Positions 2,017 to 53,363 of a stretch of DNA of 64,000 nt are shown here, one piece after another. The position numbers were made by a program, and so were the translations under genes. The first letter of the stretch is position 1, and every line of letters begins with the position of its first letter. The notes under the pieces are model-generated. The model had not been told where the DNA came from. It saw nothing but the letters and a program-made list of their open reading frames with translations, and did not search any database. The DNA comes from Brachionus koreanus (taxonomy: Eukaryota; Rotifera; Eurotatoria; Ploima; Brachionidae): assembly GCA_016987375.1 (NCBI GenBank), contig PJRA01000506.1:125854-189853 (forward strand). The letters are read 5' to 3'.

Positions 2017-3274
2017 ATGTCATTAGCAGCAAAACAATCGAAAAAATCAGAAGCAATAACCCTAACGGCTGTCAAAGCAGCAAGCCAACTTTTCAAAGAT
2101 TCTAATAGCAAAAGTTTTCGCACTCCAATCAGCCTCCTTCAAGAAATATGTACAAAATCATTGTGCGCATCTCCAACTTACGAGCTTTTGGATACTGAAG
2201 GAAAGGTACATCAGCCAACTTTTGTCTACAAATGCACTTTGAACCATCAAGTACAGGCTATCGGTAAAAGTAACACCAAAAAGAAAGCCAAACATTTGGC
2301 AGCTTTAGGCATTTTGAATCAAATACGACTTGACAATATTGAAACAGAAAATGAGCTTTCACATACCTTAGAAGAGCTGATGTAAAATTAAAGTTTCTAA
2401 ATTTTTTTTTAATAAATCGAATTTCTTATAGAACTAGTTTAAATGATTTAGACTTAGAAGAAAATCCATCAGTAATTTTGAGTAAATCTTTTGAACAAGA
2501 AACCAAACAAATGCCGTTTAATGAGAACGGCGTAGATTTGTCAAATATTCAAGTGTCTTGTGAAGGAAACCTAGAAGAAATAAAAGAAAGTGTTGCAAAA
2601 TGTGAAAATCCCGTAGGTGAACTGATCGAAATAGCGAACAAATTTTCAATGCGTCCACCAGAATTTGATTATGGTGATGAAGAGGGTCCTCCTCATAACA
2701 GACAATTTTTATGTAGCGTAAAATTTGGAGATTTTAGAGAAAGTTCATCTGCAAGAACCAAAAAATTGGCCAAAAAATATGCAGCTTTACGGCTTTTGTT
2801 TTGTGTCAAAGCAAGTGGCTTATTCAATAAAACAGAAAGTGAAAGACATGAAGAAATAAATCAAGATTTAAGTTATGCCAAATCTAGTTTAAATAAAAAA
2901 TATCCAGTTAATATTTTTAATCAATTAAAAAACAGCAAAAATCCAACAATCAATAATATATTATCTAATGATCTTGAGAGTGTTTCTTGTCTTACTCTCT
3001 TTGACAAACTCTCCAAAGAGGAAAAATTCAATTATGAAATATATAGCATTCCAACAAGCTCAGGTATTAAATAACTTTCATTGATAAATCTGAGAATAAA
3101 TTAGATAATTTTTTTATTAATCAAGAAGCAAAAGTTTTTGCTGTGGATGTAAAAACAAGCCCTCATTTAACATATGGAGGCTATGGATCTACAAAAGAAG
3201 AAGCGATTTCTCAAGCTATATTTTATACTCTAAATCATATAAAAGTAATGTGTTCTAGAGGAAAAATTAAGTGA
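2017..3274 (+). CDS. TRBP/PACT/Loquacious-like dsRNA-binding protein, copy 2
   Basis: Exons 2017-2381, 2432-3063 and 3105-3274 (introns 50 and 41 nt), about 388 residues. dsRBD1 spans about residues 37-108 with the basic motif KKKAKHLAA. dsRBD2 starts at NPVGELIEIANKF and has RTKKLAKKYAAL. The C-terminal domain runs from LFDKLSKEEKFNYEIY through GGYGSTKEEAISQA to LNHIKVM and aligns with the third domain of TARBP2/PRKRA (LLQE-EQ-F--SY ... HGSATTREAA ... LQYLKIM), which lacks the RNA-binding lysines and contacts Dicer. The gene is complete, starts at an ATG just ahead of the Ser/Lys-rich N-terminus, and is a tandem duplicate of the gene at the left edge with the same intron positions and phases. 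Expected role: Dicer partner in miRNA/siRNA processing, cytoplasmic. Confidence 0.85.
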
Positions 3275-3697: not shown

Positions 3698-5331
3698 TTA
3701 TTTACTCGGATGAATGAAATTAGAATTTTTAATATTTAAGAATATAAATCTTGAAAAAAAGAAATAAATTATGTAAACAAAAATATCGGCTATTTCAATT
3801 AGACTCATTACGCTAATTCCAAGAAAAAGTCCTAAACTTCCACCAATATAAGCCAATAAAGCATCAACATTAAGTTCAGGATATTCTTCAATTAAATTAT
3901 AATGCATCTGGTCGTAAAATACATTTACCATTAGAATAGTTTGTTGTAGATCAGTGAATGTTGAATAGTTCAAAGATGAAAAAAATCCAGATGAAATACT
4001 CGAATTATTTAAAATTGATGTATACCATTTGCTTGGATATTTAGCTGTTGAGGTCTTAATATTATACAACACTTGAAAACATTCGCTTGGACAGTTGATA
4101 TAGCATTTTTCTATTTCTATTTCATCAAAAAAATTACTTGCTTCTATCTGAATACACTCAATTTGTTTTACTGATTCACAACAAGTAAAATTTGATGATG
4201 AGTTATTTGGCCTTGGCAAACTCAAATCAAAGCAGTCACATCTCATAATCAAAAACTCTTGAAGACAAGCTTTTAAACAGTAATTTTGACTATAAACAGT
4301 CATTTCTGGATATCTCTCATTTATTGTTTTAAAGAATAAATTTTTTTTCAAATTTTCCTCAGAACGGTGATCTTCAATGCAATAACTATAAGGATATGGC
4401 TTACGTTTTATCATAGTACGCGTTATTGCGATATTTGTCTGAGAGCCGACACTAACGTCGATCCCATTTTCATCAGAAAAAGGAACATCACTTTGATTAT
4501 GAACTATTACTCTTATTCCAGCTTTGTAAGTATATTGCTGTTGTGTATCCAAGTCACCGATATAGAGTTCGAGACGTAGACCATCTCTCCATCCTGTTTT
4601 TTTAGATTTTATTACATTATTTTTGTCTCCATTGAATCGATAACAATTTCCGTAATGATAATCATGATAGTTCTCAAAATCATTAATATCGCAAATTCTT
4701 CCTTGAAATCTAATAAAAAATTACATCATTAAAGAAATTAATCAAAAATTTTCAAACTTTAATCAAAGAAATTTTTAAGTATAATTGTACTTAAATTTAC
4801 CTACAACTAATCAACATTTGACTTAAATAAAATCCTTTATAATAGAGATCAAATTGACCTTTTAATCCATCTGCTTCAAAAGTTGATTTAAAATAGTCAG
4901 AAGCTATGTCTACATAGTCAATTGGTTCGTAATTTTCTTCCGAAATATTTTTTGCATTCAATATTCTAAGCATGTCTTCTCTGGCTACATTACCATCATA
5001 TGCATTCAAATTACATATAACCACAGCTGGGTAGTAGGTAGGTGCTTCATAAATAATTTTTAAGCTAGTCAGGACATTAAATTGGAAAAATAAAATAATT
5101 ATTATTGCAACTTGGTAAATGCAATAGCTTATACACGAGATCAAAATAACACTCCAAATAATTTTTCTTGGAAGCAGATTTTCTTCAAAAACGTTTTTGA
5201 AGCCATGTGCCGAAGTGTTTGAGCTTAAAAAAAATTATTTTCTTCTTAATTAAAAACAAATATTTGAAGTACCTCCATTTTAGAATTTTATCAAATAATT
5301 TTTTCCAATTTTCTTTATTCAAATTTGCCAT
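3698..5331 (-). CDS. DEG/ENaC/ASIC-family sodium channel subunit
   Basis: Exons 5331-5273, 5223-4801 and 4709-3698 (introns 49 and 91 nt), about 497 residues. The N-terminus carries the His-Gly gating motif (SAHGFKN). TM1 (ISYCIYQVAIIIILFFQ) is followed by the family hallmark YYPAVVICNLNAYD. The extracellular domain contains GNCYRFN, GLRLELYIG and a Cys-rich region with CxCF and CPSEC. The pore helix and TM2 read GGSLGLFLGISVMSLIE, with Gly-Ile-Ser at the position of the G-x-S selectivity filter. These channels are trimeric, amiloride-sensitive Na+ channels of the plasma membrane gated by protons, peptides or force; gating mode cannot be told here. Length and topology are normal for the family and nothing is missing. 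Which subfamily it belongs to is not resolved. Confidence 0.93.
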
Positions 5332-21672: not shown

Positions 21673-23957
21673 TTATTGCAAAGCAAATTCTTCATTCAAA
21701 AGAGTTTTAATACCCAAACACATAGAATTAACCAACTCAAATTCTGATTTTCCGATTCTAACTTTATTAGAAATGTCATAAATTCCATCTTCAGACTCAC
21801 TATTTTCTCCATGTACCCCTCTAGGCTGTAAGTCCAACGATTCGCACAGTTCTTTGAGCTTTCCAGCTGCAGCCAATTTAGGAAGTCTAACGTGAACAGA
21901 TGCTCTTAACCCAGTTCCTATATTAGTCGGGCAAAAAGTCAAATAGCCAAACTTATCATGACGAACAAATTTAACAGTTTGTTCGATTATATCAATTCCT
22001 TTTACCATACGAGCGTAAACTTGCTTAATATTGCTTCCTTTTTGAATAGAAATTATTCTTACATGATCTTCTTCATTAATCCAAACAACAAATGTTCGTT
22101 TTCGGTTTATGTAAATGCCTCGATTTAAAGGCCAATCTGAATAACCGCCGGCACTCTTCAAGTATTTGTCGTCAGCGTCCGAAAAAAGATAATGAGTTTC
22201 AATCAAATGATCCCTCTCTTCATAACTTAGTTCTGAAAGTTCCAAAAAATCACCATAGAGCTCTCCTTGTAAATTCCTAAACGATTCAGTCATTTCATCT
22301 TTAATTTGCTCGCGTGTTTCACGACTCAATTTTGGACCCATTGGATAACCTTCCAAAGTTCTTCCAACTCGAATTCGACTTGAAATTATCGAATCAGCGT
22401 ATTTGTCTTCAAAATCTGGCAGTTCGTTTGGATCACCAAAGTCATGCACCGACTGAAGTGAGTATACGTCAACTTTGTGGTAATCACTAATAACCGGCCA
22501 AAATATTTCTGGAAATGTGTCATAGCATTCTGGATCTGGGGCGTACAACCCTACCGAGCTCGATGGATTTTCTACAGCAGATTTTACACAATCAACCAAA
22601 GTAGTTCCGTACTTGGTTGTTTTTTGAAGCCATAGCCACACATCTTTTGGTAAATACTTTTGAGTCATAGACATTTTTCCAGTCTTGGAACGCAAGGCCT
22701 GCTTGTTCAAAAAGCTCTAAATTTATTTTTTTAATCTAAATTTGGCTAATTATTATATTTTTTTTTTACTTGAGTTTTTTTTTTGTTAACTATCACTCTC
22801 ATGTTATCCAAAGTATTTGACAAATTATCATTTCTGGTCGCTTGACCAAGTAGCCATGGATTTTTTAAGGCTTGATAGGCATCTAAGCGTTTTTTTGGAT
22901 CAACAATCAATAATCTCATGATAAAATCCTTTGCATTCATGGAAAGATTCTCGAAACTAGACAAGTCTGTATTAAATTGTCCTTTTAGCACTTTTTTGTA
23001 CAATTCTTCATTATTTTCGCCTTTGAAAGGCTCTTCTCCGCATAGACTAAAATTTTATTAATCAAATTAATTTAAATAAAAATTCTTAAAATATTAACAG
23101 TAAATAAGCAAAGGCTCCAAGTGACCACATATCACTTGCAGGGTCTCCGACTTCATTTCGCAAAATTTCTGGAGCTAAAATTCTCAAATAAATCTAAGTT
23201 GATTGAAAGCTTTTTTAATCTATTACCACAAAATTGAATATTTGAAACGATAGAATGCTTTAACAATTCGGTGTCTAAGATTGGATAAAGAGCAACGTCG
23301 GTAAGTTTGATAGAACTTTCTTCACTCAAGTCATCGTGAACAAGATTTTCTGGTTTAATATTACCATGTACCAAGCCTTCATCATGAATGTACTTGAATA
23401 AAAAAATTGGATTTCTATTTTATTTTTTATTGTATTTACTCGAATGCCTGATAGAATTTGTTTTAAAATTTTAACTGCTTCTCTTTCTGTAAACGGCTTG
23501 ATTTTAACAGTTCTTTCTAAAACTTCTCCTCCTATTAAAAGTTCGGAAATAATATAGATATTATCAACGTCTTCAAAAATTTCTTTAATTCTTGCCTTAG
23601 TAAATCTCATGATATTTTTTTAATGTTATTTTATCTGGTCAAACTTACAACATTCTGATGTTTTAATTTAAGTAAATGGGACGCTTCTCTAAGTGATACT
23701 TTTCTGCTTTTCTTTAGAAATTAAAATTTTATAAAAAAAGACCAAAATTCTTTTAGTTTTTTTACATTTTTGGCTAAAATTTTAACACAACAAAATATAT
23801 TTTGGCCTCTTGGTTTACATTTCAAATTAGTTCCAAAAGGCCCACTTGATAATTCTTCGATTATTTCGTATTGCTCATTAAAAGGAATGTCTTTGACACT
23901 TTCTTCAACCCAATAGTCTAATTTATTTTCTAGTTTACTGGATTTTGTTTCAGGCAT
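21673..23957 (-). CDS. fusion: CAMK-like pseudokinase domain + complete arginine kinase
   Basis: Seven exons join in phase: 23957-23766, 23711-23649, 23595-23440, 23392-23227, 23174-23099, 23046-22770 and 22716-21673; 657 residues. Residues 30-300 form a protein-kinase fold closest to CAMK kinases: glycine loop (ELSSGPFGTN), Lys59 in CCVKIL, alpha-C Glu73, hinge ISELLIGGE, catalytic loop VHGNIKPENLV, CAPEIL, DMWSLGAFAYLLL and DPKKRLDAYQALKNPWL. The HRD Asp is Asn (HGN) and DFG reads DVA, so phosphotransfer is probably lost while nucleot­ide binding may persist. Residues 311-657 are a full phosphagen kinase: KYLPKDVW, VGLYAPD, SSRIRVGR, EGYPMGPKLSRE, WINEEDHVR, FCPTNIGTGLRAS with the reactive Cys, and RGVHGENSESEDGIYDISN. 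The Glu in GEN matches the arginine-contacting Glu of arginine kinases. A 53-nt in-phase intron joins the halves, with no stop between them. It probably buffers ATP by reversible phosphorylation of arginine. Confidence 0.85.
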
Positions 23958-25477: not shown

Positions 25478-26306
25478 AGCGAATACATTGAGCTTTTTCA
25501 AAAGAATATTGAAAGAAACAATTTTTTTTAAAAACATTATTATGGTTAAACTTTAAATTGTATATTGGAAATATACACTAAATCTTAGTGACATCTTTTT
25601 AACATTTGTCTCATTTCTGGTATTAGAATTAATAAAATTATTAACTGAATTCAGCATCTTAATGTCCTTTGTTACAAATATTTATGTATTTTTCTAATTT
25701 TAATTCATTTTTTTTTAAGTTTAATTAAGATTTATGCTAGAACAGTTTATAAAGAAAATAGTAATGATTTCAAGAATAAAATATTAGTACAAATGCTCAA
25801 TTGTTAATTTTAATTCTAAGGATTTATCTAATTTATGTCAAATATTTTTTTATGCTATTTTTTTTAAGTTTTAATTTAATTTTGCTTAAAATTAATTTAT
25901 TAAAAATTAGATGAATTAAGACTGTTAAATGGGCACCATTAAATCACTCAAATTTAAATTTAAAGACAATTTTTAAATACATAATTTTAATTTAAAAAAC
26001 TGATCTATTTAGTAGGAAAATATTTTTGAAAATTTATGCTTTATAAAAAAAAGAAGTCACGATGAAAGATTTTTAATTATTTTCGATTTTAGACTTTTTA
26101 TGAAAAATTTTATGCTAAAACTTTTTAATATATATTTGGTTAAAATATTTGAAGAATCAAAAAAAAATCAATAAAATTTTATTTTTTGTTTTATTGTTAT
26201 ACTAAAATTTCCCTACTCATTATAAATTCATTTTTTCATATACTTCCACATCACATATTCCAATCTTTATATTTAAATTTTTTTTAAATAATTGATAGTT
26301 TTAGAA
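25478..26306. other. intergenic, upstream of malectin
   Basis: AT-rich; the last 100 nt before the malectin ATG should contain its promoter. Nothing specific recognised. Confidence 0.4.
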
Positions 26307-27239
26307 ATGATTTTTTTAGTTTTTAGTCTAGTATTTAGTAGTAGTATAATTTCTCAAGTAACATGCCTTGGAGAAATTATTTTTGCTCTAAATGCTGGTG
26401 GTGACTCTTATACTGATAGCAATGGTATTCGGTATCGCCGCGATTACTTATCAGATGGAGTAGCGTCAGATTATGGTCGAAGTTTAGACATAAAAAGAGT
26501 TCCTGCTCAGGACAAGCTTCTCTACCAAACTGAAAGATATTCACCTGAAACTTTTAGTTATTCGATTTCGATGCCGTCTAATGATGCAGAATATGTGTTA
26601 TGGTTGAAATTTAGTGAAGTTTGGTTTAATGCACCTAACTTAAAAGTGTTTGATGTTGCATTAAATGATGCAATAATCCTTAAAGATCTTGATATTTATG
26701 CGAATGTTGGACGAGGAGTTGCCCATGACGAAATTATTCCATTCCAAATAAGAAAAAATAAACTTATTGTTGAAGGGAAAAGCTATCCTTTCAACGGAGA
26801 AATAAAAGTTGAGTTTATTAAAGGCGATTTAGATAACCCAAAGATTAATGCAATAGTTGTAATGAAAGGAACCCCAGATCGTAATTATTTTTAGAAATTC
26901 TGCAAAAAAAAAGGTGTTAAAAATATTTATTTAGAGGTGCCGAAATTAGCTCCAAACGAGCCTGAAGAACCAGAAGATGATGATGATTTACTGGAGAACG
27001 AATTAGATGAATTTGAAGAAAACGAGGAAGAAAATGAGCAAATAAAGGCTAGAAGACAAATGAGGCAAATGCAAGAAAAGCAAGAAGAAGTTAAAAAACC
27101 TAGCAAGAAAAAAACTTATGAATTCGAGGAAGAAGTTGAAGATCCATACGCAGCAGATGAATCTAGTTATTTGATTCCAATTCTTGTCACCCTTGGTGCT
27201 TTTATTCCAATTTTGTTTTGTTTGTGCAAACTGAAATAA
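26307..27239 (+). CDS. MLEC: malectin (ER Glc2-N-glycan-binding lectin)
   Basis: Exons 26307-26880 and 26935-27239 (54-nt intron), 292 residues, the same length as human malectin. Signal peptide MIFLVFSLVFSSSIISQVTC, then the malectin domain: FALNAGGDSYTDSNGIRYRRD, YSISMPSNDAEYVLWLKFSEVWF, VFDVALND and a DxD-like YANVG region. The second exon begins VPKLAPNEPEEPE, an acidic/Lys-rich linker, then DPYAADESSYLIPILV and a C-terminal membrane anchor ending PILFCLCKLK, closely matching the vertebrate tail ([24 protein letters not shown]). Malectin is a type I ER membrane protein that binds diglucosylated N-glycans with ribophorin I in quality control. The ATG at 26307 is chosen because it opens directly into the signal peptide. 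AATAAA follows at 27270. Confidence 0.96.
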
Positions 27240-52591: not shown

Positions 52592-52751
52592 TTTTGAAAA
52601 AATTCTAAATTTTCTAATTTTAAAAATAAATGAATATACTATTTCAATAAATATAACTTGCACATATGCATTCTGAAATAATTATTTTGCATGTCATGTG
52701 ATTTAATTTTTGTTGTTGTTAATTTTTTTTAGAAATATTTAATTATTTACG

Positions 52752-53363
52752 ATGAGTTCTGAATTTATTGTTGAAACAGATCAAATTAAAAAAGCTGTCC
52801 AAGTAATAAATGAAATTAGTGCAGATAAATTTCCTTTATTACTGCAAAGAATCGCTTTGAAAATTCATTCAGACTCTGAATCATCATTCAAGCAGGATGA
52901 GATAGAAAAATTGGAAAAAAGTCTTGAAATATCTAATGATGATGTTCTTTTGGTCATAGAAATTTTAGAGTTTATTTTTCTACAATCGACATATGAAGTC
53001 ATAAAGCCTCAGAATTTGTCTATGAATTTAGAAAAAATCAGGCTAAATGAGGATAAAGTAAATTCAATAGTTGATACATGGAAAGAACATGGAAAAGAGA
53101 TAACTGAAAAAATTCGTCAAAATAAAGCAATTTTTTCGCGGCGATTAATGAATTTTAAATGGCGGCTAAATATTCAAATGGCTAGTAATATGAAATCAAA
53201 ACAAAAAATTCCAAATGCTTTGTTTGAATTCAATATTTCAGATTCTTCTTCAGCTAAACCTGTGGATGAAACTGTTCAGATTGAGTTCAATAAAGAACAA
53301 TTATATGATTTTTTCTTAAAATTAGAAACAATTCAAAAACAAATTGATGCTCTTTCTAAGTAA
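52752..53363 (+). CDS. COMMD10: COMMD10 (COMM-domain, Commander complex subunit)
   Basis: Intronless, 203 residues, same length as human COMMD10 (202). Matches: KKAVQVINEISADKFPLLLQRI (human [22 protein letters not shown]), SESSFKQDEIEKLEKSL, NLSMNLEKIRLNEDKVNSIVDTWKEHG, NFKWRLNIQMASNMKSKQK and the C-terminal FNKEQLYDFFLKLETIQKQIDAL. The last 60 residues are the COMM domain that makes heterodimers and the ten-membered ring of the Commander/CCC complex, which sorts membrane proteins from endosomes to the plasma membrane. Start and stop are clear. Confidence 0.95.
   Translation: MSSEFIVETDQIKKAVQVINEISADKFPLLLQRIALKIHSDSESSFKQDEIEKLEKSLEISNDDVLLVIEILEFIFLQSTYEVIKPQNLSMNLEKIRLNEDKVNSIVDTWKEHGKEITEKIRQNKAIFSRRLMNFKWRLNIQMASNMKSKQKIPNALFEFNISDSSSAKPVDETVQIEFNKEQLYDFFLKLETIQKQIDALSK

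Follow-up and report, generated by a model that had tools for sequence, protein, structure and literature searches.

A gene on the minus strand of the Brachionus koreanus genome encodes, in this order, a protein-kinase fold of the CaMK1/4 type, a conserved tail of about 40 residues and a whole arginine kinase (AK). We conclude with high confidence, on the basis of sequence comparison, that the kinase and the AK belong to one predicted gene, which is shared with Brachionus calyciflorus and several relatives, and the residues of the kinase half strongly support its assignment as a putative pseudokinase.

The gene is located in a 64-kb stretch of DNA (the whole stretch analysed, hereafter the window), which has a GC content of 25% and is derived from an assembly of 83.3 Mb in 92 contigs. 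It was rebuilt from position 23957 to position 21673 as seven exons, which contain 657 codons and a stop in a frame open throughout (Table 1); splice sites were picked for phase, as had also been done in an earlier note on this DNA. The seven-exon structure proposed in that note, including the last intron, was reproduced, and a homologue of equal length provides independent support for it. All six introns are of the GT..AG type, with lengths of 54, 53, 47, 52, 52, and 53 bp and phases of 0, 0, 0, 1, 2, and 0, respectively, in gene order. Pfam search of the protein detected Pkinase at residues 30-283 (179 bits, above the cut-off), ATP-gua_PtransN at residues 325-386 (64.2 bits; cut-off, 25.7) and ATP-gua_Ptrans at residues 448-653 (233.6 bits; cut-off, 22.4); the two halves are joined without a stop between them, as had been claimed. 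The start and sequence of exon 1 are kept in the protein of B. calyciflorus (P0001).

Table 1. Exons and last intron of the fused gene; positions are those of the window.
Feature	Positions	Strand	Content
Exon 1	23766..23957	-	Start Met, CaMKIV-like DYW segment, P-loop S-x-G-x-x-G, VAIK Lys (K59)
Exon 2	23649..23711	-	Alpha-C helix, Glu73 retained
Exon 3	23440..23595	-	N-lobe through alpha-E
Exon 4	23227..23392	-	HGNIKPEN catalytic loop, DVA, activation loop without GTPGY
Exon 5	23099..23174	-	APE to alpha-F; flanking introns equal to CaMKI introns in position and phase
Exon 6	22770..23046	-	C-lobe of kinase and first half of linker (tail)
Intron 6	22717..22769	-	53 bp, phase 0, within linker
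Exon 7	21673..22716	-	Second half of linker (SFLNKQALRSKTGK), entire AK, stop

Several other features were observed in the window. Two similar ORFs are found on the plus strand, at 2355-3074, with a dsRNA-binding motif in Pfam, and at 246-908, which resembles the former by eye and has no Pfam match. Exons or genes of an amiloride-sensitive sodium channel (3698-4720, minus strand), of a malectin-domain protein (26292-26894, plus strand) and of a COMM-domain protein (52743-53363, plus strand) were also detected.

That the two halves form one fused gene is strongly supported by homologues, by relatives with a single ORF and by conservation of the linker. P0001, the closest named protein, is identical at 80% of residues across 100% of the query; because such a full-length homologue exists, the fusion is not a product of chance. 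This B. calyciflorus fusion is already public, unremarked, under the UniRef name 'Arginine kinase'. At least eight relatives (P0002, P0003, P0004, P0006, P0157, P0159, P0160, and P0162) have a single ORF running from the kinase C-lobe or tail via the linker into the AK. The contigs of six of the eight are 5.0-35.3 kb long, a size suggestive of genomic DNA; those of P0003 and P0004, at 2.0 and 2.6 kb, could be cDNA. The linker corresponds to residues 286-325 of the window protein, and the numbers of its 40 residues identical to the window are 29, 29, 25, 23, and 18 for P0001, P0003, P0157, P0159, and P0160, respectively, and 17 for each of P0002, P0006, and P0162; P0004 has 19 of 38. In partly covered linkers, 5 to 13 residues are identical out of 13 to 25 positions. 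Six further proteins (P0121, P0163, P0218, P0230, P0233, and P0254) start within or just ahead of the conserved linker, and these late starts are consistent with a putative intron in the linker region.

If the locus consisted instead of two adjacent genes, or of an operon with trans-splicing, the kinase would end at the TAG in intron 6 and the AK would start at the motif MSMTQ (GKMSMTQKYLP in the window). The unspliced kinase frame does reach an in-frame stop within the 53-bp stretch, exon 7 has an ATG preceded by 14 codons, and the called P0122 protein takes the second Met of MSMTQ as its first residue. The homologues nearly exclude this arrangement, however, and we regard it as extremely improbable: the eight single-ORF relatives have neither a stop nor an intron at the junction, the B. 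calyciflorus entry was deposited as one protein of 657 aa, and residues upstream of the first Met can be aligned in all 15 relatives covering it. An AK start codon of its own, which the earlier note had named as evidence for two genes, was looked for in the same 15 relatives; the first Met is found in none of them (A, V, P, I, L, S, or Q instead) and the second in two (P0121 and P0233), the others having L or I. A decaying pseudogene or an assembly artefact is scarcely credible either; the frame of 657 codons is intact with GT..AG introns, the equal-length homologue retains 80% identity, and the relatives are spread over many separate contigs. Since the two protein searches scored the 7995 candidates sharing most words, the distribution of the fused gene given here is a lower bound; single-domain matches in bdelloids and Seison do no more than hint that it is absent there.

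In the kinase half, the VAIK Lys (K59), the alpha-C Glu (Glu73), the Asn of KPEN (Asn153) and the Mg-binding Asp (Asp169) are retained, HRD is changed to HGN (N148), and DFG to D[V/I]A (D169-V170-A171 in the window), all of which agrees with the earlier reading of these motifs. In addition, the activation-loop GTPGY, which contains the Thr targeted by CaMKK, is lost (the window reads SNIQF), the first Gly of the P-loop is Ser, and the position that we take to be Val57 in PKA numbering is Asn. When a pseudokinase is defined as a kinase fold in which one or more of three residues (VAIK Lys, HRD Asp, and DFG Asp) are missing, it is the HRD Asp that is lost here, Asn being found in all three sequences that cover the catalytic region (the window, P0001, and P0006, one of them partial). 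Of the features of an active CaMKI or CaMKIV, namely the HRD Asp, DFG and the activation-loop Thr in GTPGY, the window has HGN, DVA, and SNIQF. Without the HRD Asp and the P+1 loop, protein phosphorylation is expected to be abolished, and the four retained residues would permit nucleotide binding. The presence of Lys59, Glu73, Asn153, and Asp169 would also be compatible with an atypical yet active protein kinase, for which CASK, a CaMK-type 'pseudokinase' that reportedly can retain some activity, gives a precedent; we consider this improbable in view of the changes at the catalytic Asp, at the Phe and Gly of DFG, and in GTPGY, which are common to the window, P0001, and P0006.

The best solved relative of the kinase half by sequence is human CaMKIV (2w4o; 210 bits), followed by CDPK (183), CaMKI (179), DAPK (156), and twitchin (152), and the fused protein and CaMKIV both have a DYW segment ahead of the kinase domain. 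In a kinase tree of 22 rows, the window, P0001, and P0006 are grouped together (100/100, stem 1.38), and these fused kinases are placed with human CaMKIV with moderate support (88/84, not starred); the kinase half has both a Pkinase domain and kinship to CaMK1/4. A titin/twitchin-like origin, which an MLCK-like C-lobe had prompted, was rejected on the difference between the CaMKIV and twitchin scores and on the tree, in which MLCK and DAPK are placed elsewhere.

A canonical CaMKI with intact HRD and DFG is encoded in the same genome (contig C38), and two introns of the fused gene, FC/APE (phase 1) and YL/LLCG (phase 2), where the slash marks the intron, correspond exactly to YV/APE and YI/LLCG of this CaMKI. 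A crude simulation with uniform placement gave a chance of about 0.0007 for two exact matches, and no intron across the same region was found in three other CAMK loci (L045, which is CaMKII, L046, and L047). Intron 6 (KKKTQ/SF, phase 0) and a phase-0 intron of CaMKI (SKWK/KAY) both fall within one segment of the tail, with an offset of one codon when AF and AY motifs are aligned by eye and of five codons in a MAFFT alignment. Intron 6 was therefore not accepted as a certain relic of the CaMKI intron, but the two may go back to one ancient intron; in that case, the AK would have been added after this intron, in the last exon. A canonical CaMKIV gene was not identified in this genome, where four CAMK loci were read in detail. 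In P0008 and P0010, three CAMK-type kinase domains are found in a row, the third having NRN or HRN for HRD; these motifs may mark a further family in which a pseudokinase is built in.

The linker is located where CaMKs have their autoinhibitory tail and has no Trp of the kind found in CaMKI. It is basic, and its amphipathic moment was no better than that of shuffles in the five sequences tried. Calmodulin binding by the linker, considered as a candidate, is not supported by this result, and neither is retained calmodulin regulation.

In the AK half, the reactive Cys (Cys572), the NEED Glu (Glu526) and the arginine-contacting Glu (Glu617) are present, in agreement with the earlier note. Together with both phosphagen-kinase Pfam domains, the Cys, the NEED Glu, the flexible-loop Glu and the four nucleotide-binding Arg residues expected of such a kinase were found; in Limulus numbering, we take the kept positions to be Arg124, Arg126, Arg229, Arg280, Glu225, Cys271, Glu314, Ser63, Val65, and Tyr68. 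The GS loop is short and of the arginine type, as SSSVGLY aligns with the loop of single AKs and S63, V65, and Y68 are kept. The Arg cluster is also described in PMC12467219. The Arg309 position is His in the window, and likewise in P0123 and both Seison proteins. The fused AK is predicted to keep its active site in this species. The AK half aligns from residue 25 of Limulus AK and has no counterpart to roughly 24 residues at the N-terminus of arthropod AKs; because a single AK of the same genome is similarly short, starting only about eight residues before that point (MSHGSKKPSLTEKYLP), the AK half is complete for its lineage. The two best PDB sequence matches of this half are Anthopleura AK (4rf6) and Schistosoma taurocyamine kinase (4wo8).

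In an AK tree of 45 rows rooted on Trypanosoma brucei, all 10 known fusions belong to one clade of 18 rows (SH-aLRT 100), and 14 of the 15 rows labelled single are outside it, P0158 being inside; two Seison proteins and a Didymodactylos protein are also outside in this quick tree. P0158 and P0220 were counted in the fused clade from the AK sequence alone, since their upstream part is not covered. A retrocopy origin of the AK half, considered because exon 7 is intronless and single AKs have introns, was dropped: seven relatives of the fused clade have an ORF that ends precisely at G[G/A]YxDW, an indication that an intron interrupts their AK half. The ordinary AKs of the genome are two single genes with introns in tandem at C5:220957-224562 (L002 and L003), which have 57-64% identity by piece. 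A mitochondrial creatine-kinase-like gene at C22:1256465-1257480 (L004, L030, and L031), in which NEED is changed to NRRD and CPTN to DPKN, is probably a pseudo-phosphagen kinase with a degenerate active site.

Comparison with relatives gave an unexpected result. Among the 264 proteins fetched, 128 of the matches listed fit the AK half of the window at E <= 1e-30, and these consist of 18 fused-clade proteins (17 tree rows besides the window, and P0163) and 110 others. Among these listed matches, Arg126 is lost in 6 of the 18 fused-clade proteins versus none of the 110 other AKs, the replacements being S in P0006, P0163, and P0158, C in P0157, K in P0160, and F in P0220; half of the six (P0006, P0157, and P0160) are proven fusions. 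Within the same listed matches, Cys271 is changed to Ser in two of the eight covered fused-clade proteins (P0158 and P0220), and Glu225 to Gln and Arg229 to Asn in one of eight (P0220), versus none of the 110 others in each case. Arg124 is retained in all 128 AKs among the matches listed, as is Arg280 in 8 of 8 fused-clade and 110 of 110 other proteins, and in the Glu314 column another residue than Glu is found in one of seven fused-clade and also in 19 of 108 other proteins. P0158 and P0220, which have lost both Cys271 and Arg126, are probably dead AKs, judging from these residues. The eroded sites in relatives are possibly those of pseudogenes or extra paralogues.

Because AK residues are lost in fused-clade relatives, ATP buffering may not be the whole function of the fused protein, and these losses argue against AK catalysis as its universal purpose. 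They also suggest that the protein may be useful in some species despite an impaired AK, which would favour a scaffold component. Were both halves a pure scaffold with AK catalysis dispensable, the excess of Arg126 and Cys271 losses in the fused clade among the matches listed would be accounted for, and the two single AKs of the genome could provide the activity. This reading is unlikely for the present gene, because the AK site residues examined are intact here and in B. calyciflorus, both of which keep Arg126, with the exception of the R309 position, where His is also found in several single AKs.

Two AlphaFold models, A2 and A3, were built on P0001. In A2, the mean pLDDT is at least 90 in 30 of the 33 blocks from residue 331 on, i.e., in the AK half, and the kinase half is poor, with pLDDT below 50 over most of the N-lobe and the activation region and a poor mixed alignment. 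A3 has a good kinase fold and a weaker AK half. The AK model matches AK structures (for 1p50, TM 0.85 by target, rmsd 7.8, 353 columns), and structural matches of the kinase half include the CaMKIV fold and the kinase domain of CASK. Placement of the two halves is unreliable in both models (pTM 0.64 and 0.51).

On these data, we give about an even chance to the reading that a pseudokinase derived from CaMK1/4 targets the AK, with possible nucleotide sensing, and no longer phosphorylates protein. The kinase half would have lost protein phosphorylation and become a non-catalytic module that, by binding partner proteins, holds the AK where ATP is consumed. Since the Lys, the alpha-C Glu, the Asn and the Mg-binding Asp remain, it may bind ATP or ADP and relay the nucleotide state to the AK via a linker helix. 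The suggestion of the earlier note that the pseudokinase may tune the phosphagen buffer, as a scaffold or as a sensor of ATP, would fit these residues, and the Ser in place of the first P-loop Gly and the Asn at the Val57 position speak against nucleotide binding. For the origin, a gene of the CaMK1/4 type would have received the AK coding sequence at its downstream end, within the last exon, and this joining likely happened a single time, in an ancestor from which a rotifer lineage descends. More tentatively, and rather doubtfully, the protein could be a self-regulated phosphagen kinase, in which the pseudokinase reads ATP/ADP or a partner and gates the AK through the helical linker, with some AK halves becoming pseudoenzymes; if this is true, some species carry a doubly dead kinase-kinase scaffold.

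Phosphagen kinases are usually regarded as soluble, constitutively available ATP buffers, and a conserved fusion would tie the architecture of CaM-kinase-type signalling directly, at the genetic level, to energy buffering. The fusion would be a ready system for studying pseudokinase control of a metabolic enzyme, with the two halves in one chain and with natural variants having intact and altered active sites available.

The fused protein shares with the single-domain Limulus AK (1m15/1bg0) the phosphagen-kinase domains, Cys271, Glu225, Glu314, Arg124/126/229/280, and the GS loop, but its AK has no free N-terminus, has a pseudokinase ahead of it in place of the first residues, and has His at the R309 position. 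It resembles two-domain phosphagen kinases (4rf6 and 4wo8) in having a phosphagen kinase within a longer chain; in those, both units are phosphagen kinases, whereas the partner here is a protein-kinase fold. With CaMKI and CaMKIV (2w4o), it has in common the DYW segment, the fold, the tree position and two CaMKI intron positions; it differs in lacking HRD, DFG, GTPGY, and the first Gly, and in a tail that continues into AK and not into a short C-terminus. A dead kinase fold N-terminal to another enzymatic domain is known in JAK2 (JH2), in receptor guanylyl cyclases (kinase-homology domain) and in RNase L, and HGN for HRD is also found in the first two; this is an analogy in layout alone, without family membership, since they belong to another kinase group, and the partner in the present gene is a metabolic phosphagen kinase. 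CASK is a CaMK-group pseudokinase acting as a scaffold and fused to PDZ/SH3/GUK, and, unlike in the AK fusion, its partner is not an enzyme of energy metabolism. Among the papers listed in searches of open-licence literature, none dealt, by title and abstract opening, with a fusion of protein kinase and phosphagen kinase. Pseudokinases fused to other enzymes are known, as are phosphagen kinases with several domains; as far as we have searched, what is new is their pairing in this gene.
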